From Pseudomonadota bacterium (GTDB lineage: Bacteria > Myxococcota_A > UBA796 > GCA-2862545), in assembly GCA_023954855.1 (NCBI GenBank), contig JAGSGY010000002.1:1-64000 (forward strand): DNA of 64,000 nucleotides. The letters run 5' to 3'. Positions 3 through 11,737 of this stretch are shown here, piece after piece (the first letter of the stretch is position 1; every line of letters begins with the position of its first letter). Position numbers and translations under genes: made by a program. The notes beneath the pieces were generated by a model. The model was not told where the DNA came from and made no database searches. It worked only from the letters and a program-made list of their open reading frames with translations.

Positions 3-2165
3 GTGCTCCAGCACCTCTGGCCGCAGCTCGTGCCCGAAGAGGGACTCGAGGACCGGCTCGCATGGCTGTCGCTCATTCAGGGAGGGGCCACCGTCATCGC
101 GGCCTTGGCCTGCCTGACCTTCCCGGTCACGGTGCAGTTCGAGCAGCCCCCGGTGCACTACGGCGAGCGCAGCTCCATTGCCTGGAACCTGGTCGACCCG
201 CTCTGGTTCACGGCGCTCATGGGCGTCCTCGCGGTGCCCTTCGCGGTGGTGGGCCTGTCATTCGCGGGCGTGTTTCAGCGTCGCAAGGAACACATCGGCC
301 TGATCTACGGCGCGGACCTGATTGGCGGTGCCGTCGGTGGTCTTGCGTTCATTCCGCTCCTCTACCTGCTGCCGGCCCCTGACGTGCTGTGGATCGTGAC
401 CGCGGTCACCGCGGCGTCTGCGGCGGTGCTGTTCCACGTCACCGGAGCGATGCGCAACCGGATGGTCGCGGCGGTGGCGTTGATTGCGTCGCTTGGCCTC
501 ACGGGTGCGGCCGCTGTCGGAACCGAGGTGCTGCACGTGCGCTTTGCCGCCGGCTACTCCGAAGAGAACGTGACCTATACGCGGTGGACGCCACTCACGC
601 GTCTGGCCGTGCACGAAGACGACCGCGGCACCTTCATGCTGCTCGACAACAGCTCGGCCTCCGAGGTGGTCAAGACCAAGGACCGGCAGAAGTTCATGGC
701 TCGGTCCGCTGCCCGCGCGTTCGTGTACCGCATGCACGAGCCGGGAGCGCGCATCGCCATTCTCGCCGCATCGGCGGGTCCCGAAGTGGCTGCGGCCCAA
801 GCGGCTGGCCACCACCACATCGATGCCGTCGACATCGCTGCTGAGATTGGCGACATCGTCTCGACGCGCTGGCCCGACTCGGACGTGAACCCGTACGTGG
901 TGGGCGACACCCGGCGCATCTGGTCCGATGGACGCGCGGCCATTCTCCACGCCGAGGAGCCCTACGACATCATCCACATGGTGCACGCCAACCTGCACTC
1001 GAACGCGGGCCTGATGGCGAATGCCTGGTCGCCGAACCTGCTCCAGACCAAGGAGGCCTTTCTCACCTACCTGGACAGCATCACCGAAGACGGCACCATC
1101 TGCTTCGCCGCCCAAGGCCAGACCCGTCACTTCGTCCGCGCGGCCGCCGAGGCCCTCAAGGAAAGGGGTGCCGAGCGTCCAGGTGACCACATCCTCTTCG
1201 TGGGCGGAAACCAGATCTTCATGCTGCTGAAGAAGCGCCCGTTCACGCCGGCCGAGCAGCAGAAAGCGGCGCGTCTCGTGAAGAGCTGGCCTGGTAATCA
1301 GTACGTGATCAGCGACCCGCTCGCGCGCGACCTTGGCCAGCGTCAGAAGTACCTGTGGACCGGTCCGGTGATGACCGACAATCGCCCGTACCACGAGTCC
1401 ACCGAGGTGTTCTTCGAGTCGATCGACCGCTCGTGGCGCTACCTAACCGGCGACCCCTCCGTCGAGGCTGAGCCGGTCGACATCATCTACAACTCGCTGC
1501 TGCTGCAGGCGGCGCTCGCGGTATTTGCCGGATCGCTGCTCGTGCTGATTCCGCTAGCCCGACGCGGACCGGCGGGACTGAGTGACGTCAGCGGAGTCGG
1601 GTGGGGCCTGATCTACGCCTGCTGCCTCGGCTACGGCTACCTCGGCGTCGAGACCGTGCTGATTCACGAGTTGGTGCTGTTCGTGGGCCACCCGGTCTAC
1701 GCGGTCACGGTGGTGATCTGCACCATGCTGCTGTTCTCTGGGCTCGGGAGCATTGTCGTTGGCCGACTCGAGGCCGATGGGCTGGTCAACCGACTTCGCG
1801 CCGTCCTGGTCGCGGTCGTGGCCCTTGGTTTGTTCCAGGCCTACGTCGTGCCGGCTGCCCTGTACGGCAACGCGCTCGGCATGCCGATGGGCGTTCGCAT
1901 TGGCCTGACTGCCGTCGCGCTCGCACCACTCGGATTCCTGATGGGCATGCCCTTCCCGATGTTCCTTCGCGTGCTGCGCCCCGAGGCGGGCGGCATGGTG
2001 CCCTGGGCTTGGGCCTTCAACGGCTGGATGAGTGTGGTGGCCAGTCTCGGCACGGTGTTCGTGTCGCGCCTGTACGGCTACCACCAGGCGTTCACGGTCG
2101 CGATTGTCGCGTACGGCATCGCCCTCGCAGTCTCGGGCTTCTTGCCGAAGATCGGACGGCGGTAG
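3..2165 (+). CDS. Membrane protein with spermidine-synthase-like domain (5' partial)
   Basis: The gene enters from the left edge, so its true start lies outside the window; the first in-frame GTG at 3 looks internal because a hydrophobic helix is already under way. Order in the visible 720 residues: membrane helices (about 25-165), a soluble Rossmann-like domain (about 185-430) with a glycine/alanine-rich SAM-type loop (ILAASAGPEV) followed by an acidic HIDAVDI strand, then further membrane helices (about 500-715). This is the layout of membrane-embedded spermidine synthase-like proteins. Substrate and reaction cannot be told from the sequence; true polyamine synthesis is only one possibility. 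The next gene begins 115 bases downstream and is probably a separate unit. Confidence 0.72.
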   Translation: MLQHLWPQLVPEEGLEDRLAWLSLIQGGATVIAALACLTFPVTVQFEQPPVHYGERSSIAWNLVDPLWFTALMGVLAVPFAVVGLSFAGVFQRRKEHIGLIYGADLIGGAVGGLAFIPLLYLLPAPDVLWIVTAVTAASAAVLFHVTGAMRNRMVAAVALIASLGLTGAAAVGTEVLHVRFAAGYSEENVTYTRWTPLTRLAVHEDDRGTFMLLDNSSASEVVKTKDRQKFMARSAARAFVYRMHEPGARIAILAASAGPEVAAAQAAGHHHIDAVDIAAEIGDIVSTRWPDSDVNPYVVGDTRRIWSDGRAAILHAEEPYDIIHMVHANLHSNAGLMANAWSPNLLQTKEAFLTYLDSITEDGTICFAAQGQTRHFVRAAAEALKERGAERPGDHILFVGGNQIFMLLKKRPFTPAEQQKAARLVKSWPGNQYVISDPLARDLGQRQKYLWTGPVMTDNRPYHESTEVFFESIDRSWRYLTGDPSVEAEPVDIIYNSLLLQAALAVFAGSLLVLIPLARRGPAGLSDVSGVGWGLIYACCLGYGYLGVETVLIHELVLFVGHPVYAVTVVICTMLLFSGLGSIVVGRLEADGLVNRLRAVLVAVVALGLFQAYVVPAALYGNALGMPMGVRIGLTAVALAPLGFLMGMPFPMFLRVLRPEAGGMVPWAWAFNGWMSVVASLGTVFVSRLYGYHQAFTVAIVAYGIALAVSGFLPKIGRR

Positions 2166-2280
2166 GGGACAGGGCTTCGAGAGCGCCCCTTGGCGCGAGC
2201 ATCGCAGCGTCGAATGCAATAGGCTTGCGGCCCCGAACGGAGCGCGTCCCGCTCCCGTCCTCTTGCCTACGAGTCTTGCT

Positions 2281-3789
2281 GTGAACGACGCACCCTCGAA
2301 CCTCGCCGCTTTTGCTGACCTGCTCGACCTGTCCTCATCGGCGGTCGGAGCGGTGGCTCTGCTGGCCAGCGACGACTTCTTTGCCGAGAAAGAGAACCTG
2401 GTTCTCGCCGAGCCTCCGGTCTTCGACCCGGATGCCTACACCGAGCGTGGCAAAGAGATGGACGGCTGGGAGTCCCGTCGTCAGCGCATTCCCGGGCACG
2501 ACTGGTGCATCGTCAAGCTCGGCATCCCCGGACGCATTCGCGGTGTCGATATCGACACCAGCTTCTTCACCGGAAACCAGCCGCCGTACGGTGCCTTGTA
2601 CGGGCTTCGCGTCTCGGGACCCGTCACCGCCAAGGCCCTGCGCGACTCGACGAACTGGGTGCCGCTCACCGGCCAGGTGCCGCTGCGTCCCGGCTCGCAC
2701 AACCTCTTCGCCACGACCTCGGGCGAGGTGTTCACGCACGTGCGCCTCGACATCTACCCCGATGGCGGCGTGGCGCGGCTTCGCTGCTATGGCGAGCCGG
2801 TTCCCGAGGCCTCGGACGAGCGCATCGACCTTGCGGCATCGCTGCACGGCGGGCGAGCGATTGCGGCCAGTGACCGCTTCTACTCCCCGCCAGACAACCT
2901 GCTCGCCCCTGGCTTGCCGAAGAACATGGGCGGGGGCTGGGAGACGCGCCGTCGTCGCACCGATGGCAACGACTGGGTCGTGGTGGCCCTGGGAGAGCCC
3001 GGCGTGCTCGACGCCTTGGTGGTCAACACCACCCACTACAAGGGCAACTTCCCCGATCGCTGCCGCGTGAGCGGCATCTGGTGGCCAGACGCACCGACGA
3101 CGGCGCTGCTCGCGAGCGACGAGTGGGTCGAGGTGCTGGTCGAGTCCAAGCTGCGCGCCCACGAAGCCCACATGTTCCCGCACCTCGAGAGCCGTGGACC
3201 GTTCACACACCTTCGGGTGGACATCGTGCCCTGCGGCGGCCTGGCCCGGTTCCGCGCGCTCGGCACGCCTGGTGTGCCCGACATTGCTGCGGACCCCGTC
3301 CTCGTCGCGGTCAACGGCGAAGACAGCGAGGAGCGCTTCTTCGCGTGCTGTGGTTCGCGGGCCTGGGCCAAGCAGATGGCGGCGCAGCGTCCCTACCAGT
3401 CGCGTGCCCAGCTCCTCGGCACCGCGGAGCACGTGTGGTGGCATCTCGGCGAGGGACATTGGCGCGAGGCGTTTACGCATCACCCGCGCATTGGCGCCGA
3501 TGTGGCGTCGTTGCGGGCCAAGTTCGCGACCGCCGAACTCTCGGCAAAGGAGCAGGGGCAGGCGATGGCGTCGGCCTCCGAAGAGACGCTGCGTGAGCTC
3601 GCGCTCAAGAATGCCGAGTACGACGAACGCTTCGGCCACCTGTTCATCGTGTTCGCCACCGGAAAGTCCGCCGCCGAAATGCTCGAACTGCTCGAGCAAC
3701 GGCTCGACAACTCCGCCGCCGCAGAGATCCGCATCGCGGCAGGCGAGCAGGCCAAGATCACCCGCAACCGCCTGGAGACGCTGGCATGA
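2281..3789 (+). CDS. Allantoicase fused to OHCU decarboxylase
   Basis: A two-domain purine-catabolic enzyme of 502 residues. Residues about 10-335 are an allantoicase (allantoate to ureidoglycolate plus urea), with the family signatures SDDFFAEKENL and ERGKEMDGWESRR and the typical duplicated jelly-roll. Residues about 337-502 match 2-oxo-4-hydroxy-4-carboxy-5-ureidoimidazoline (OHCU) decarboxylase: the catalytic-loop motif HPRIG sits at 401-405 and the conserved RFGHLFIV follows. The GTG at 2281 is chosen because it lies just ahead of the conserved allantoicase start; no good ribosome site is visible. The stop overlaps the HIU hydrolase start by four bases (ATGA), so the two are translationally coupled. 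The fused activities are separated in the pathway by the allantoinase step, which is encoded at 7894-9210. Confidence 0.93.
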   Translation: MNDAPSNLAAFADLLDLSSSAVGAVALLASDDFFAEKENLVLAEPPVFDPDAYTERGKEMDGWESRRQRIPGHDWCIVKLGIPGRIRGVDIDTSFFTGNQPPYGALYGLRVSGPVTAKALRDSTNWVPLTGQVPLRPGSHNLFATTSGEVFTHVRLDIYPDGGVARLRCYGEPVPEASDERIDLAASLHGGRAIAASDRFYSPPDNLLAPGLPKNMGGGWETRRRRTDGNDWVVVALGEPGVLDALVVNTTHYKGNFPDRCRVSGIWWPDAPTTALLASDEWVEVLVESKLRAHEAHMFPHLESRGPFTHLRVDIVPCGGLARFRALGTPGVPDIAADPVLVAVNGEDSEERFFACCGSRAWAKQMAAQRPYQSRAQLLGTAEHVWWHLGEGHWREAFTHHPRIGADVASLRAKFATAELSAKEQGQAMASASEETLRELALKNAEYDERFGHLFIVFATGKSAAEMLELLEQRLDNSAAAEIRIAAGEQAKITRNRLETLA

Positions 3790-4115
3790 AGAGCCCGATC
3801 ACCACCCATGTTCTCGATACCGCCACCGGGCGTCCTGCAGCGGGCTGTCCGATCACGCTCTCTCGCGGAGACGAGGTGCTAGCGTCCGGCATCACCAACG
3901 CCGATGGGCGCATCGCCGACTTGCTCGCACCCGGCACGCTCACGCCCGGTCTGTACTGCATGACCTTCGACACCGCCGCCTACTTTGCGGCGAGCGGCAC
4001 GGCGGCCTTCTACCCGGTCGTTCCCGTGCACTTCGAGATCACCGCGACCGACGAGCACTACCACGTGCCCCTTCTTCTCTCGCCTTATGGCTACTCGACC
4101 TACCGGGGAAGCTGA
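3786..4115 (+). CDS. uraH: 5-hydroxyisourate hydrolase (transthyretin-like)
   Basis: A 109-residue protein of usual length for the family. It shows the N-terminal ITTHVLDTATGRPA signature, the HFEI and HYHVPLLLSPYGYSTYRGS C-terminal block, and the diagnostic ending YRGS. It hydrolyses 5-hydroxyisourate, the product of urate oxidation, to OHCU, which the decarboxylase domain of the upstream gene then converts to S-allantoin. No signal peptide is seen, so it should act in the cytoplasm. It overlaps the previous gene by ATGA and the following gene by TGATG, which places three purine genes in one translationally coupled unit. Confidence 0.97.
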   Translation: MKSPITTHVLDTATGRPAAGCPITLSRGDEVLASGITNADGRIADLLAPGTLTPGLYCMTFDTAAYFAASGTAAFYPVVPVHFEITATDEHYHVPLLLSPYGYSTYRGS

Positions 4116-5455
4116 TGCCTGCTCGACTCGATCCCGCACTCGTCGCGAAAGTCCTCAACACGCTCGGGGATGCGAATCGCGCCTTCGAGGCCGCCTACCC
4201 GGGCGAGCCCGAGGCGCGTCAGCCGCTGCACACCGTCTACGGCGGCGGCCAGCTGTTCACCCACGACACCACCGTGAAGCTCGGCAAGCTCGCGCTGCGC
4301 TCGCTGGCGACCTACGCGCCCGACGCGGCCACTCTCGCTGGCGCGCTCGATCTGCCTGGCGATGCGGCGCTGCACCAGACGGTCTACGACCGGGTCGTCG
4401 CAAAGCTCGAGCGCGAGCCTGTCGAGGACTTCCGCATCGACTTTGAAGATGGGTTCGGCAATCGCCCCGACGCCGAAGAAGACCACCACGTCGAGCGCGC
4501 CGCCCTCGAGGTCGCCAAGGGCATGGAGCTCGGCACGCTGCCTCCGTTCATCGGCATTCGGGTGAAGCCGTTCACGGAAGAACTCAAGGCCCGCAGCGCG
4601 CGTACCCTCGACTTGTTTGTGTCGACGTTGCTCGGGGCTACCGGCGGGAAGCTGCCCGAGAACTTCGTCATCACCCTGCCGAAGGTCCCGATTCCGGAGC
4701 AGATTGACGCCTTTGTCGTGCTGCTCGCCGCACTCGAGCAGGCCCACGGTCTCGACGCGGGAACCCTCAAGATGGAGTTCATGGTCGAGCTCACGCAGAC
4801 CATCATCGGCGAGGATGGGCGCACTCCGCTCCCGACCTTACTGCGCGCTTGCCAGGGGCGCTGCACCGCCGCGCACTTCGGCACCTACGACTACACCGCA
4901 TCCGCCCAGATCACCGCCGCCCACCAGGTCATGGACCACCCGGCCTGCGACTTCGCGAAAGAGGTGATGAAGAACGCCCTCGCCGGCACCGGCATCTTCC
5001 TCTCCGATGGCGCCACCAATGTCATGCCGGTCGGACCCCATCGCGGCGAGCTCACCGACGCCCAGAAGGACGAGAACCAGGCGGTCGTGCACGCGGCGTG
5101 GAAGCTCGCGTCGAGCCACATCGAGCACAGCCTCATCGGCGGATACTTCCAGGGCTGGGACCTTCACCCCGCCCAGCTGCCCGTGCGCTACGCGACCTGC
5201 TTTGCCTTCTTCCTCGAAGGACACGCAGCGGCGTCCGAGCGGCTCAGCAACTTCATCGACAAGGCGGCGCAAGCGACGCTGGTCGGCGATGTCTTCGACG
5301 ACGCTGCCACGGGCCAGGGCTTGCTGAACACCTTCCTGCGCGCGCTCAACTCGGGCGCCATCACGATGGAAGAGGTGCGTGAGACGGGCCTGACACTCGA
5401 AGAGATCCAGAGCCGCAGCTTCGTGCAGATCTTGAAGGGACGCCGCGCGATCTAG
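4115..5455 (+). CDS. CitE/HpcH-type lyase-like protein of the urate operon
   Basis: A 446-residue protein whose ATG shares one base with the HIU hydrolase stop. It resembles the HpcH/HpaI aldolase-citrate lyase beta superfamily (TIM barrel). Candidate metal and substrate ligands are in IDFEDGFGNRPD (about 105-116), GIRVKP, the glutamate in MEFMVELTQT and the aspartate in FGTYDYTAS. It is longer than ordinary CitE (about 290 residues) and looks like the DUF6986 group, which, as I recall, also sits beside urate genes in actinomycetes. The role is unproven. Context suggests handling of the ureidoglycolate or glyoxylate released by allantoicase, for example a malate-synthase-like condensation, because no ureidoglycolate lyase is seen in this window. 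Confidence 0.8.
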   Translation: MPARLDPALVAKVLNTLGDANRAFEAAYPGEPEARQPLHTVYGGGQLFTHDTTVKLGKLALRSLATYAPDAATLAGALDLPGDAALHQTVYDRVVAKLEREPVEDFRIDFEDGFGNRPDAEEDHHVERAALEVAKGMELGTLPPFIGIRVKPFTEELKARSARTLDLFVSTLLGATGGKLPENFVITLPKVPIPEQIDAFVVLLAALEQAHGLDAGTLKMEFMVELTQTIIGEDGRTPLPTLLRACQGRCTAAHFGTYDYTASAQITAAHQVMDHPACDFAKEVMKNALAGTGIFLSDGATNVMPVGPHRGELTDAQKDENQAVVHAAWKLASSHIEHSLIGGYFQGWDLHPAQLPVRYATCFAFFLEGHAAASERLSNFIDKAAQATLVGDVFDDAATGQGLLNTFLRALNSGAITMEEVRETGLTLEEIQSRSFVQILKGRRAI

Positions 5456-7282: not shown

Positions 7283-7897
7283 ATGCGCAAGCCCATCACC
7301 GCTGTCCTGGTCGTCGTGTTCGGTCTGTTGGTCAGCGCTTGGTTTCTGGTGCAGCCCACCGAGCCAGCGGCGCAGCCGGCCGCTCCCGAGGAGGCCCGAC
7401 GTCAGGTCATCGAGGGTCATGCACCGGTGGCGAGCGGGCACGACCACGAACACACCGCGGCCGAGACGCAGCAGGGAAGGGTGGGGGACAATGGCATGCC
7501 CATCGCCGATGACGCGCCGGTGAAGACGGCCGGGTTCCCAAAGGTCGAGCCCGTTCGGCCGCTTGATAGTCCCGGAGATTGGGTCGGTGTGCGGGCCGAG
7601 GCCCACGAGAAGTGGGTGCGGGCGTCGATGGATGCACTCGAGATCTACGGGGATCGCGAGCAGCTGTCGGAGTCAGACTACGCGGCGCTTCAGGCGAGCT
7701 TTGGCCAGCTTCACTCCACGGTCGAGGAGACCCGTCGGAGCATCGAGGCCGGAGAGATGCTCCCCGCCGAGGGACGCGAAGTGATGAAAGCCGCTCGTGA
7801 GACGGTCGCGTCCGAGCTGACCGAACTGTTTGGCGAGCACGAAATGGAGATGCTGCGCCTCGAGATGGTGAAGCGCGTTCCCGCCGGTGGTTTCTAG
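7283..7897 (+). CDS. Hypothetical membrane-anchored helical protein
   Basis: I do not recognise this 204-residue protein. A short positively charged start (MRKP) leads into one hydrophobic helix (about 5-23), followed by a low-complexity linker with a His cluster (GHDHEH) and a helical, glutamate-rich C-terminal half (about 95-200). It is probably anchored in the inner membrane facing the periplasm. A GAGGAG ribosome site at 7272-7277 favours the ATG at 7283 over the one at 7280. Its TAG interlocks with the TAG of allantoinase on the other strand (CTAG at 7894-7897). Confidence 0.75.
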
Positions 7898-9210
7898 GAC
7901 CGCAGAACCGGGCGGCCGGTCGCGGTTCCGAGGGGTTTCCCGTGGCTCGCGACCTTCTCGCCGCGCAGCCAGGTGGCATGCACGACGCCGCGAAGGGTGT
8001 GGTCGCGGTAGGGCGTCACCTTGTGGCGATGCAAGAGCGCATCGGCGTCGACGATGAACTCGCCGTCGGGGTCCCAGGCGACCAGGTCGGCGTCGGCGCC
8101 CACGGTGAGCGTGCCCTTGTGCTTCAGCGAGGCGAGCTTGGCGGGATGTTGGCTCATCCAGCGAGATAGATCCGCGATCGAGAAGCCACGGGCCGAGGCC
8201 TCGGTCCAGATCGCGGACAGGCCGAGCTGAAGCGATGCGATACCGCCCCATGCCTCGAGAAAGTCACCGCGTTCCGGCAGCTTGAGGCCGGGCACGCAGG
8301 GGCTGTGGTCGCTGACCACCTGATCGATGATGCCGTCGCGAAGGCCCTGCCACAGCGCGTCGCGATTCGCTTCCTCGCGGATCGGCGGGCAGCACTTGTA
8401 CGAGGTGTCGCCCACCGGAACCTGCGCTGCGGAGAGGCATAGGTAGTGGGGGCAGGTCTCGACCGTGATCGGCAGGCCCTCTGCTCGGGCTGCGGCGAGG
8501 GAGGGTAGGGCGCTGGCCGACGAGAGGTGCACGATGTGCGCGGGGCAGCCCGTCTCGCGGACGAGCTCGATGACCAATGCAATCGCGTCGTCTTCCCACG
8601 ATGCGGGCCGCGAGGCGAGGAAGGTCGCGTAGTCCCGAGGGTCACCGGGAGGATGCAGGTCCGACTCGAGCTCGGCGTGCACCAGCAGCGGAACGCCGGC
8701 AGCGCGCAGGGTGGCCATCGACGGACGTAGGTTCTCGGGCGTGGAGGCGGGGAAGTCGTCGATGCCCGAGTGACACAGGAAGCACTTCGCGCCGACCACA
8801 CCGGCCTGCACGAGCTCTTCGAGGTCATCGACGTTGTCGGGAACCACACCTCCCCAGAATGCAGCATCGACGTGGAGCTCGCCCTCGAGGGCCGCCAGCT
8901 TGGTGCGGAGCGCATCGGCGGTGGTGGTCACGGGAATGCAGTTCAGGGGCATGTCGACGATGGTGGTGATGCCCCCGACCGCCGCGGCCTGGGTCGCAGT
9001 CACGAAGCCTTCCCACTCGGTTCGACCTGGCTCGTTCACGTGAACGTGCGCGTCGACCAATCCCGCCATCAGCACGAGGTCACCGAGGTCTTCGACGGTC
9101 GCGCCCTCTGACGGTGCGCCAATCGCGATGATGCGCCCGTCTTCGATGCTGACGGCCCCGTCGACCCAGCCCTTTGGGGTGAGGATGCGGCGGCTCCGGA
9201 GGGCGATCAC
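7894..9210 (-). CDS. allB: Allantoinase
   Basis: A 438-residue cyclic amidohydrolase that opens allantoin to allantoate, feeding the allantoicase encoded on the opposite arm. Metal ligands are all visible: HVH at 55-57, the carboxylated lysine in GAKCFLCHSG (Lys142), His178 (LLVHAELE), His228 (HIVHLSS) and the aspartate in VSDHSPC. Length and motifs fit AllB better than dihydroorotase or hydantoinase, and the operon supports this. The GTG at 9210 overlaps the urate oxidase stop as GTGA, so it is chosen over upstream in-frame codons that would run far into that gene. Confidence 0.95.
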   Translation of the reverse strand: MIALRSRRILTPKGWVDGAVSIEDGRIIAIGAPSEGATVEDLGDLVLMAGLVDAHVHVNEPGRTEWEGFVTATQAAAVGGITTIVDMPLNCIPVTTTADALRTKLAALEGELHVDAAFWGGVVPDNVDDLEELVQAGVVGAKCFLCHSGIDDFPASTPENLRPSMATLRAAGVPLLVHAELESDLHPPGDPRDYATFLASRPASWEDDAIALVIELVRETGCPAHIVHLSSASALPSLAAARAEGLPITVETCPHYLCLSAAQVPVGDTSYKCCPPIREEANRDALWQGLRDGIIDQVVSDHSPCVPGLKLPERGDFLEAWGGIASLQLGLSAIWTEASARGFSIADLSRWMSQHPAKLASLKHKGTLTVGADADLVAWDPDGEFIVDADALLHRHKVTPYRDHTLRGVVHATWLRGEKVASHGKPLGTATGRPVLRS

Positions 9211-10790
9211 TCGCTGGCCTTGAATGCAAAGTCGGCGGTGGTACTTCCCTTCGCCGTCACCGTCACCTGGCTGCTCTGAAGTCCGAAGACCTCGTGCCAG
9301 GCCTCGATGGTGTAGTCGCCGGGCGGTAGTCCCGTGATTTCGAACTGACCGTCTGCGGCCGAGATGGCCCACGCGTTGTGCGGCACGACGCCGAGGTAGG
9401 TCTGCATCCAGGGATGCACGTCGCAGCGCGCGTTGACGGTCACCTCGGGCATGCGGAACACCTTGTCCTCACGCTGGTTCACGGCTGGCATGTTGAGGTT
9501 GAATCCCTCGTTGGCGGTGCTGACCGTACGCACGTTGTGGAAGGTGTCATCGCTGTTGATGAAGGTCACGGTCTGACCGACGCGGACGCCGAACAGGCGC
9601 TTGTCGTAGATGCAGCTGGACTGATCGACTTCGACGGCCGCCTCGGGGATGGGGCCCGGGTCGTAGCCCTCGAGGCCAGCCGTCACCGAGACGAAGACAT
9701 TCTGGAGCCCGCCGTCCGTGACGAGCACGGCGTCCGACAGGACCTCGCCCTTCTGCAGCGCGGCGCAGGCGCCGTACATCTTCAGGGGCTCTGCGGGGGG
9801 CACGTCACCGACGAACGCGATTCGGCCGGTCACCGAGCCCGCCGTGGCGGCGTCGATGGTGGGCAGACCCTCTGCGACCGGAACGACGGGCATCGGCGTT
9901 TCCGTCTTCGGCACGGTGAGGGTGACGAGCAGGCCGAGGGACGCGAGTGCGGTGATATGGATGGCGGGATGGGCCTTGATGCCGTCGTAGACGTACTGGC
10001 GAACGGCCACGCCCAACGCGATGAAGCCGAGAAGAATCGGGGTCTTCAGGTCGTGGCCGTACAGGGCCGGGTAGTGGTTGCTGATCATCAAGAAGATGAT
10101 CGGGAAGTGCATGTAGCCGTTGTGAACCGAGCGCTGGTGGGCCACGGCGCCGAGAGAGGGGTCCGGCTCTTGCCCTGCGATCAATGCGGCGATCGACTTG
10201 CGGCTGTTTGGCAGGATGCGCATCCACACATTCGCGGTCATCAGGGTGCCCATGAGCGCGCCGACGTGGAGAAACGCTGCGCGACCCGAGAGCAGCTCGG
10301 GCAGTGCGATGCACGCAGCGAGGAACATGGCGGCGGTTCCAGTCGCGGCGACCGGTCCACCGATGCGGGCCCAGAGGGTGTCGTAGATGGCCCAGCCACC
10401 GATCAACGTGCCGAGGCTGATGCCGATCGCAGCCGAGCTGCTGATGCCGGCTGCAGGGTGGGTCAGCATCATGCCGCCACCCATGTAGAACGTGGCGATG
10501 AGCAAGAAGAAGCCGGTCACCCAGGTGCCGAGCGACTCGTACTTGAACCACTTGAGGTCGCCGGTGAACACCTTGGGCAGCACGCGGGTCTTCTGCATGC
10601 GGAAGAATCCGCCGCCGTGCACCATCCACATCTCGCCGTTGACGTCGGGGTCGACATCATCGACCTCGGGCCTCTTCAGGTTGTGCTCCAGCTCGTGGAA
10701 CATGAAGGCGTGGCCAATCCAGGCGATGGCGAAGGTCACGTGAAGCCAGCGGAAGGCCAAGCCGGCCCACTCGGTGAGGTATTCGATCAT
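9207..10790 (-). CDS. puuD: PuuD-type membrane urate oxidase with C-terminal cupredoxin-like domain
   Basis: 527 residues. Residues 1-295 form the multi-helix membrane domain of PuuD-type urate hydroxylase (DUF989), with the typical start WLHVTFAIAWIGHAFMFHELE and the MWMVHGGGFFRMQK segment. The known PuuD protein carries a C-terminal cytochrome c domain; here no CxxCH haem motif is present. Instead residues about 315-527 form a beta-rich domain with a plausible type 1 copper site: His418 (DDTFHN) and Cys456-x2-His459-x2-Met462 (CDVHPWM), then a carboxypeptidase-regulatory-like segment (TGLPPGDYTIEAW). The inferred role is urate oxidation at the membrane with electrons passed to copper. It lies 35 bases after a SCO-like gene and overlaps allantoinase by GTGA. 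Confidence 0.9.
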   Translation of the reverse strand: MIEYLTEWAGLAFRWLHVTFAIAWIGHAFMFHELEHNLKRPEVDDVDPDVNGEMWMVHGGGFFRMQKTRVLPKVFTGDLKWFKYESLGTWVTGFFLLIATFYMGGGMMLTHPAAGISSSAAIGISLGTLIGGWAIYDTLWARIGGPVAATGTAAMFLAACIALPELLSGRAAFLHVGALMGTLMTANVWMRILPNSRKSIAALIAGQEPDPSLGAVAHQRSVHNGYMHFPIIFLMISNHYPALYGHDLKTPILLGFIALGVAVRQYVYDGIKAHPAIHITALASLGLLVTLTVPKTETPMPVVPVAEGLPTIDAATAGSVTGRIAFVGDVPPAEPLKMYGACAALQKGEVLSDAVLVTDGGLQNVFVSVTAGLEGYDPGPIPEAAVEVDQSSCIYDKRLFGVRVGQTVTFINSDDTFHNVRTVSTANEGFNLNMPAVNQREDKVFRMPEVTVNARCDVHPWMQTYLGVVPHNAWAISAADGQFEITGLPPGDYTIEAWHEVFGLQSSQVTVTAKGSTTADFAFKASE

Positions 10791-10825
10791 TCGCGCACAC
10801 TAGCGCGTTTGTGTCGGCTGTGTGA

Positions 10826-11737
10826 CTACGGCCGGCGACTCGGTGCGCTGGCAAGGGCGACCGTCCAGCGCCCTTCTGAGAGTTCAGCTTCGAGCTGCCC
10901 TGGGGACCAGCTCGTGATGCCGCGCACGACGGTGCCCCCACGGTGCTCGCCTGGGCGGTAGGCCCAGCCATCCGTACCCGGAAACAGCGTGTTCACCTGC
11001 TCGCCCATCGGCCCGCCGACACCAGGCTTGTCGAGGAGCAGTCCCCACGCGCCCTCGTCGCCCTGCGCACACAGGGCGACGCTGTGGTGTTCAAAGGCGC
11101 TGGCCGAAGGCCCCGAGCTGGCCTGTAGAACGCCGAGGCTGCAGGGCAGGGGATCGTGCATGCGTGCGAGCATGTGCTCGACCGAGATGGCGTCGTCGGA
11201 CCACCAGCTGACCGCACGCCCCCCTGGCTCGATGAGCACGATGCGCACGGTGTGATCGAGGGTGTCCTCGGGGCCGTCGAGGGCGACGACGTTGAACAGG
11301 GAGGGCAGGTCTTCAGAGACGAGTGCCGCGTCACCCGTGGCGAGTCGGAACCGCTCGGGGGCGGCGCCAAAGCGCGACCCGTAGGCCTTCAGCTGCTCGG
11401 GGCCGTCGTGGCCGGGGTCGAGGGTCACGGCAAGGAGCGAGAGCTTTCCGGCGGGATTGGCCTGGTGCGCGGCGTCGAGGGCGACAAGCTTGCCCATCGT
11501 CATCGGACAGGCCTCGGCCTTGGGGCAGCGCGTGTAGATGAAACCGAGGGCCAGCCAGCCGTCCCGGGTGTCCGCCAGTTGGAACGCGTTGCCCTCCTGG
11601 TCAGTGAGCGGAACGTCGGGAATCGGGTCGCCGAAGGACCAGGCCTCCATCTCGCTGCGCCATGCGGGCTCGGCAATCGGGGAGGGGGTCGGCTCGGGTG
11701 AGCCGCAAGCGAGGAGGAACGCGAGCAGTGTGAACAT
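10826..11737 (-). CDS. SCO1/SenC-like lipoprotein (putative copper chaperone)
   Basis: 303 residues with a lipoprotein signal (lipobox LLAC, Cys at about 11). Residues about 35-190 are a thioredoxin-like SCO domain. The copper motif is TRCPKAEACPMTM, that is Cys-x5-Cys rather than the classical Cys-x3-Cys; this wider spacing occurs in one branch of SCO proteins as I recall. The distal histidine of the site is probably in DHTVRIVL. An extra C-terminal domain of about 110 residues is not recognised. SCO proteins load copper into cupredoxin-fold sites. Being first in the urate oxidase transcript, this one is a natural candidate to metallate the copper-like domain of the downstream protein. The ATG at 11737 is directly ahead of the signal peptide. 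Confidence 0.85.
   Translation of the reverse strand: MFTLLAFLLACGSPEPTPSPIAEPAWRSEMEAWSFGDPIPDVPLTDQEGNAFQLADTRDGWLALGFIYTRCPKAEACPMTMGKLVALDAAHQANPAGKLSLLAVTLDPGHDGPEQLKAYGSRFGAAPERFRLATGDAALVSEDLPSLFNVVALDGPEDTLDHTVRIVLIEPGGRAVSWWSDDAISVEHMLARMHDPLPCSLGVLQASSGPSASAFEHHSVALCAQGDEGAWGLLLDKPGVGGPMGEQVNTLFPGTDGWAYRPGEHRGGTVVRGITSWSPGQLEAELSEGRWTVALASAPSRRP

Follow-up and report, generated by a model that had tools for sequence, protein, structure and literature searches.

Where do the electrons of urate go when a PuuD-type urate oxidase lacks its cytochrome c? The question is raised by the gene at 9207..10790 on the minus strand of the 64,000-nucleotide (nt) stretch analyzed here (the window). 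In Agrobacterium fabrum, PuuD was found by gene association and deletion, and a cytochrome c in the periplasm was proposed to take up the electrons of urate from the cytosolic side; CXXCH was reported as strictly conserved in all PuuD sequences (PMC4562309). A sequence-only reading of the window had assigned the protein a PuuD-type membrane domain, no CxxCH, and a copper site in place of haem. We put the probability at about 0.8 that it is a PuuD/DUF989-type membrane urate oxidase in which a type 1 copper site replaces the c-type haem as periplasmic acceptor. Because the CXXCH criterion fails, it is not a cytochrome c PuuD by the published definition; with the same membrane domain and pathway and a predicted type 1 copper site, it most likely works like one. 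No description of a copper-containing or cupredoxin-fused urate oxidase was found in open-access PubMed Central (PMC; subscription papers were outside the scope), in keeping with the earlier supposition that the variant is undescribed, and PMC4562309 was the only paper characterizing PuuD found there.

The membrane domain and its copper-type tail

The gene and the parts of its product are as follows.

9207..10790, minus strand: puuD-like gene with copper-type tail; open reading frame (ORF) of 527 aa with ATG start
9915..10790, minus strand: DUF989/Urate_ox_N membrane domain (PF06181), residues 1-292, eight predicted transmembrane helices
9648..9857, minus strand: first part of a CarboxypepD_reg-like beta sandwich, residues 312-381 (model residues 312..526 match a carboxypeptidase D domain fold, Z 11.0)
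9381..9647, minus strand: cupredoxin domain, residues 382-470 (plastocyanin/amicyanin fold matches; amicyanin profile)
9213..9380, minus strand: second part of the sandwich, residues 471-526 (PF13620, 4.6e-9 at 473-522, and fold match)
9537..9539, minus strand: His418, predicted copper ligand, equivalent to amicyanin H53 by alignment
9405..9425, minus strand: Cys456-Asp-Val-His459-Pro-Trp-Met462, predicted copper ligands equivalent to amicyanin C92, H95, and M98 by alignment

The membrane domain is a full DUF989, as had been proposed: the Pfam Urate_ox_N match covers residues 4-289 (E = 4.4e-86; 289 bits, cut-off 26.9), and the invariant residues of this domain are identical in copper-tailed and haem-tailed PuuD. 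An AlphaFold2 (AF2) model of the full protein, built from the window sequence aligned with its relatives, has a mean predicted local distance difference test (pLDDT) score of 84.6, with eight long helices (2-36, 83/84-102, 118-143, 145-166, 169-204, 211-237/239, 249-269, and 275-292) followed by beta structure; modeled alone, the membrane domain again gives eight helices (pLDDT 88.4). A motif search of all 527 residues found no CxxCH, which agrees with the earlier reading. Beyond the membrane domain, Pfam and NCBIfam recognize CarboxypepD_reg above its curated cut-off (36.9 bits vs. 32.3), with sub-threshold matches to Copper-bind (0.003) and amicyanin (5e-4).

Sequence comparison of the tail with solved structures returned cupredoxins, chiefly amicyanin (9.5e-4 with the single sequence, 5e-6 with a profile built from relatives). 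In the AF2 model, residues 382-470 have plastocyanin and amicyanin as fold matches (Z 11-12.5, root-mean-square deviation 1.6-2.3 Å); since this segment lies inside the sandwich match at 312-526, the cupredoxin appears to be nested in a CarboxypepD_reg-like sandwich. The earlier description of residues ~315-527 as cupredoxin-like therefore fits the segment 382-470, the tail as a whole being two nested modules. The fold-modeling check proposed with it thus returned a predicted cupredoxin, at Z ~12 to plastocyanin/amicyanin.

A sequence alignment pairs His418, Cys456, His459, and Met462 with amicyanin residues 53, 92, 95, and 98, which we take to be its copper ligands. The structural alignment (model 382-469 on chain 17-105; 29% identity over 87 residues) has a one-residue shift and places the four residues at the copper-site positions. 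The same four residues (H, C-x2-H-x2-M) are kept in every one of the 19 fused proteins, the window's included, at 35-75% and mostly 35-45% identity to the window protein, conservation well beyond chance. Their identification as a type 1-like set is upheld on both counts.

Spread and exchange of the two tails

In the window's phylum, nine of 379 genomes, from four families, encode a fused copper-tailed PuuD (G000, G001, G013, G348, G121, G270, G193, G097, and G319); in G374 the membrane and copper parts are split into neighboring divergent genes, beside purine genes. Ten more came from scanning GTDB species genomes: eight from Bdellovibrionota, one from an Acidobacteriota metagenome-assembled genome (MAG), and one from a Lysobacteraceae (gammaproteobacterial) MAG, with MAG organism names as given in their records. 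The loci examined thus comprise 19 fused copper-tailed proteins, none of them with CxxCH, and 112 intact ones in which CxxCH follows the membrane domain; no protein has both tails. The GTDB loci are the 80 that best matched a copper-type alignment, so the counts do not stand for population frequencies. Outside the two classes are truncated or broken copies, the split G374 form, and three short DUF989-like proteins described below. The claim that a cupredoxin stands in place of cytochrome c is borne out by this count of tail types. A sequencing or annotation artefact is ruled out, as 19 separate genomes carry the copper tail. Nor is an inability to make c-type cytochromes its cause: Cytochrom_C_asm (Ccm/Ccs) proteins are present in 10/10 copper-type genomes. 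Three of the haem-tailed proteins (L088, L092, and L094, from G155, G243, and G183) carry CxxCH twice on the C-terminal side of the membrane domain, which suggests a dihaem tail.

A membrane-domain tree of 68 rows shows several changes between copper and haem labels, with well-supported branches requiring three or more between copper and all others; the tree is unrooted, and the direction of tail change is not readable from it. A single copper clade is rejected by the approximately unbiased (AU) test (p = 0.012). This signal stems from a Bdellovibrionaceae sequence (L127) placed among haem-tailed forms, without which the test no longer rejects (p = 0.29). One common origin for all copper-tailed forms was accordingly set aside in this qualified sense: the result is evidence for at least one tail exchange beyond the basic split.

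The copper-tailed proteins contradict the claim that every full-length DUF989 urate oxidase has a cytochrome c. They amount to a natural experiment on one catalytic membrane domain, with haem and copper standing in for each other, and indicate that evolution can swap the electron-carrying metal while keeping the rest of the enzyme. A broader proposal, to which we give about even odds, is that DUF989 is a modular redox domain whose haem c or type 1 copper acceptor has been exchanged more than once, and that it is one of a larger, undescribed group of DUF989-type membrane oxidoreductases whose partners are cupredoxins and cytochrome oxidase and some of which (the short G157/G167 form) act on non-urate substrates.

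Urate chemistry and competing explanations

The purine setting proposed for the window protein is confirmed by its neighbors.

7894..9210, minus strand: allantoinase (TIGR03178, 1.9e-163), with a GTG start at 9210
2032..3789, plus strand: allantoicase fused to 2-oxo-4-hydroxy-4-carboxy-5-ureidoimidazoline (OHCU) decarboxylase (PF03561, 1.3e-87; PF09349, 8.1e-39); longest ORF, the true start may be later
3786..4115, plus strand: 5-hydroxyisourate hydrolase, uraH (PF00576, 4e-37)
4118..5455, plus strand: DUF6986 protein (PF22484, 2.1e-178), 3' of uraH in the purine gene cluster

Allantoinase follows puuD on the same strand, as had been noted, its start overlapping the puuD stop by 4 nt. Within the stretch around each gene, uraH, uraD, allantoicase, or allantoinase lies near puuD in 18 of 20 copper-type loci; the other two are at a contig end (G121) or in a genome with a dispersed set (G013). 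The H-G/S-G-G-F loop of PuuD is present in all 19 copper-tailed proteins, and the ten in-phylum genomes whose copper-type PuuD has the full loop all encode OHCU decarboxylase. Xanthine dehydrogenase-type proteins likewise occur in 10/10 in-phylum copper-type genomes, and uricase (PF01014) in 0/10, the window genome among those without it, although no search for HpxO/HpyO was made.

In most Bdellovibrionota copper-type loci uraH is directly downstream of puuD. At L123:9912-14603, L125:9986-14695, and equivalent places in other Bdellovibrionota loci, a fused ORF of ~1565 aa lies right after uraH and joins malate-synthase-like, OHCU decarboxylase, serine beta-lactamase-like, and allantoicase parts. 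No allantoinase was found within the loci that have it, so the beta-lactamase-like part might fill the allantoinase step.

In the mechanism we propose, the membrane domain would oxidize urate to 5-hydroxyisourate, on the cytosolic side as the topology given in PMC4562309 suggests. The electrons would cross the membrane to the copper site in the periplasm (Cu2+ to Cu+), which could pass them to a soluble cytochrome c or straight to cytochrome oxidase. UraH, UraD, allantoinase, and allantoicase would complete the pathway.

Several points weigh against this account. The four predicted ligands are placed by alignment to amicyanin rather than by interatomic distances in the model, and it is from sequence that we infer copper occupancy and urate oxidation for the copper-tailed form. 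We assign neither an electron route through the DUF989 domain nor that domain's cofactor. A known fold was sought for it among PDB structures, with no relative at E ≤ 0.001 (Foldseek) or Z ≥ 8 (VIA-align), a result that does not show a new fold. SCO adjacency is limited to one family (see below). Finally, a cupredoxin gene also adjoins two of three short DUF989-like membrane proteins, which have no HGG loop and whose genomes (G157, G167, and G332) have no OHCU decarboxylase, so pairing alone is no proof of urate chemistry:

L066:8972-9820, short DUF989-like membrane protein, with cupredoxin gene 9691-10668
L067:8839-9744, short DUF989-like membrane protein, with cupredoxin gene 9608-10549
L071:1532-2521, short DUF989-like membrane protein

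The short form is probably a non-urate relative. In G157 and G167 this form lies beside a cupredoxin gene, which favors reading the window protein, too, as a DUF989 membrane oxidoreductase for another substrate, near purine genes by chance. With the PuuD loop in every copper-tailed protein, purine neighbors at nearly all loci, and genomes that have uraD and xanthine dehydrogenase-type proteins and lack uricase, this is hardly credible. If urate is the substrate, the tail could still be a CarboxypepD_reg/cupredoxin scaffold that has lost its metal, the enzyme using a separate soluble carrier; CarboxypepD_reg is usually a binding or stability module, and the ligand geometry comes from alignment. 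Metal loss would allow the ligands to drift, however, and all four, including the amicyanin-type C-x2-H-x2-M loop, are kept across several phyla at mostly 35-45% identity, so that we regard a metal-free tail as very unlikely. A cupredoxin that does bind copper might be accessory, for example as a superoxide scavenger or copper sensor, with the membrane domain giving its electrons to quinone or oxygen. Superoxide scavenging has been raised as an alternative role of the PuuD cytochrome c domain (PMC4562309), and no acceptor has been assigned to the membrane domain itself, which would fit. The strict either/or with cytochrome c and the exchange on the tree fit carrier-for-carrier substitution, free-standing homologues are found in cytochrome oxidase operons, and an accessory role seems unlikely. 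The reading of a urate oxidase with copper as its periplasmic acceptor is retained.

The SCO neighbor, free-standing cupredoxins, and known systems

The gene preceding puuD had been read as a SCO/SenC-like lipoprotein that matures the copper site.

10826..11737, minus strand: SCO1/SenC lipoprotein with AlgH-like C-terminus (PF02630, 5.6e-17; PF02622, 8.3e-8), preceding puuD by 35 nt

The assignment and the 35-nt gap stand: PF02630 scores 62.4 bits (cut-off 22.8), and the SCO thioredoxin-like domain is present. Less typical are its motif, CPKAEAC, which is C-x5-C rather than CxxxC (also in G001 and G013), and its C-terminus. The AlgH/DUF179-like C-terminal segment is fused to SCO in the window's genus (window 10826-11737, L069:8712-9656) and absent from the G013 homologue. 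SCO is directly 5' of puuD in the window and G013, the two proteins being 43% identical; in G001, of the same genus as the window, a related SCO is 24 kb from puuD, with a photolyase-like gene upstream of puuD in its place. PF02630 searches and local hidden Markov model scans found none near the other copper-type urate loci. The proposed enrichment was obtained in number (SCO as immediate neighbor in 2/20 copper-type vs. 0/112 haem-type loci, p = 0.022), with both cases from one family and so not phylogenetically independent; general adjacency was not found. SCO was thus rejected as a general partner of copper-tailed PuuD, and the idea of a dedicated maturation partner has no general support. 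Within the window's family, the SCO-like lipoprotein may load or reduce the copper site; in other families, a general SCO or copper supply would serve it.

Four genomes have a ctaB-SCO-cox3-coxB-coxA cluster headed by the gene for a free-standing lipoprotein, whose cupredoxin domain is homologous to the PuuD tail's and has the same ligands:

L203:7310-8209, free-standing cupredoxin lipoprotein
L204:7667-8551, free-standing cupredoxin lipoprotein
L205:9562-10461, free-standing cupredoxin lipoprotein
L206:6658-7569, free-standing cupredoxin lipoprotein

By gene context they link the cupredoxin/CarboxypepD_reg domain family to copper and cytochrome oxidase, and they are possible copper electron donors or copper carriers for the oxidase. 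Their place in SCO-containing cox operons makes SCO maturation plausible for the domain family; for PuuD it is a prediction.

With a copper tail, the destination of PuuD electrons becomes testable, as blue color would report urate-dependent reduction. Native PuuD was not overexpressed in E. coli (PMC4562309); a copper tail should make c-type haem maturation unnecessary, and expression may be easier for that reason. The enzyme would be a urate oxidase predicted to work without haem c and to produce no hydrogen peroxide. Bdellovibrionota, many of them predatory bacteria, appear to use it in purine catabolism.

Compared with known systems, the window protein is closest in plan to PuuD of A. fabrum (Atu2314; COG3748/PF06181), sharing a full eight-helix DUF989 with identical invariant residues, a C-terminal redox domain, and a purine setting with uraH/uraD in a genome without uricase. 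It differs in that redox domain, a cupredoxin with four predicted ligands where PuuD has a cytochrome c with CxxCH and Met. The tail resembles amicyanin and plastocyanin in fold and in its His, Cys-x2-His-x2-Met set; whereas amicyanin is a soluble carrier for methylamine dehydrogenase, the tail is attached to a membrane enzyme and sits within a CarboxypepD_reg-like sandwich. The neighboring SCO has the PF02630 domain, paired Cys, conserved His, and lipoprotein-like signal of SCO1/SenC, but C-x5-C instead of C-x3-C and, in the window's genus, an AlgH-like C-terminus. The free-standing cupredoxin/CarboxypepD_reg lipoproteins (e.g., L203 7310-8209) share the PuuD tail's homologous domain and four ligands; unlike it, they have no DUF989 fusion and sit in a cytochrome oxidase gene set.

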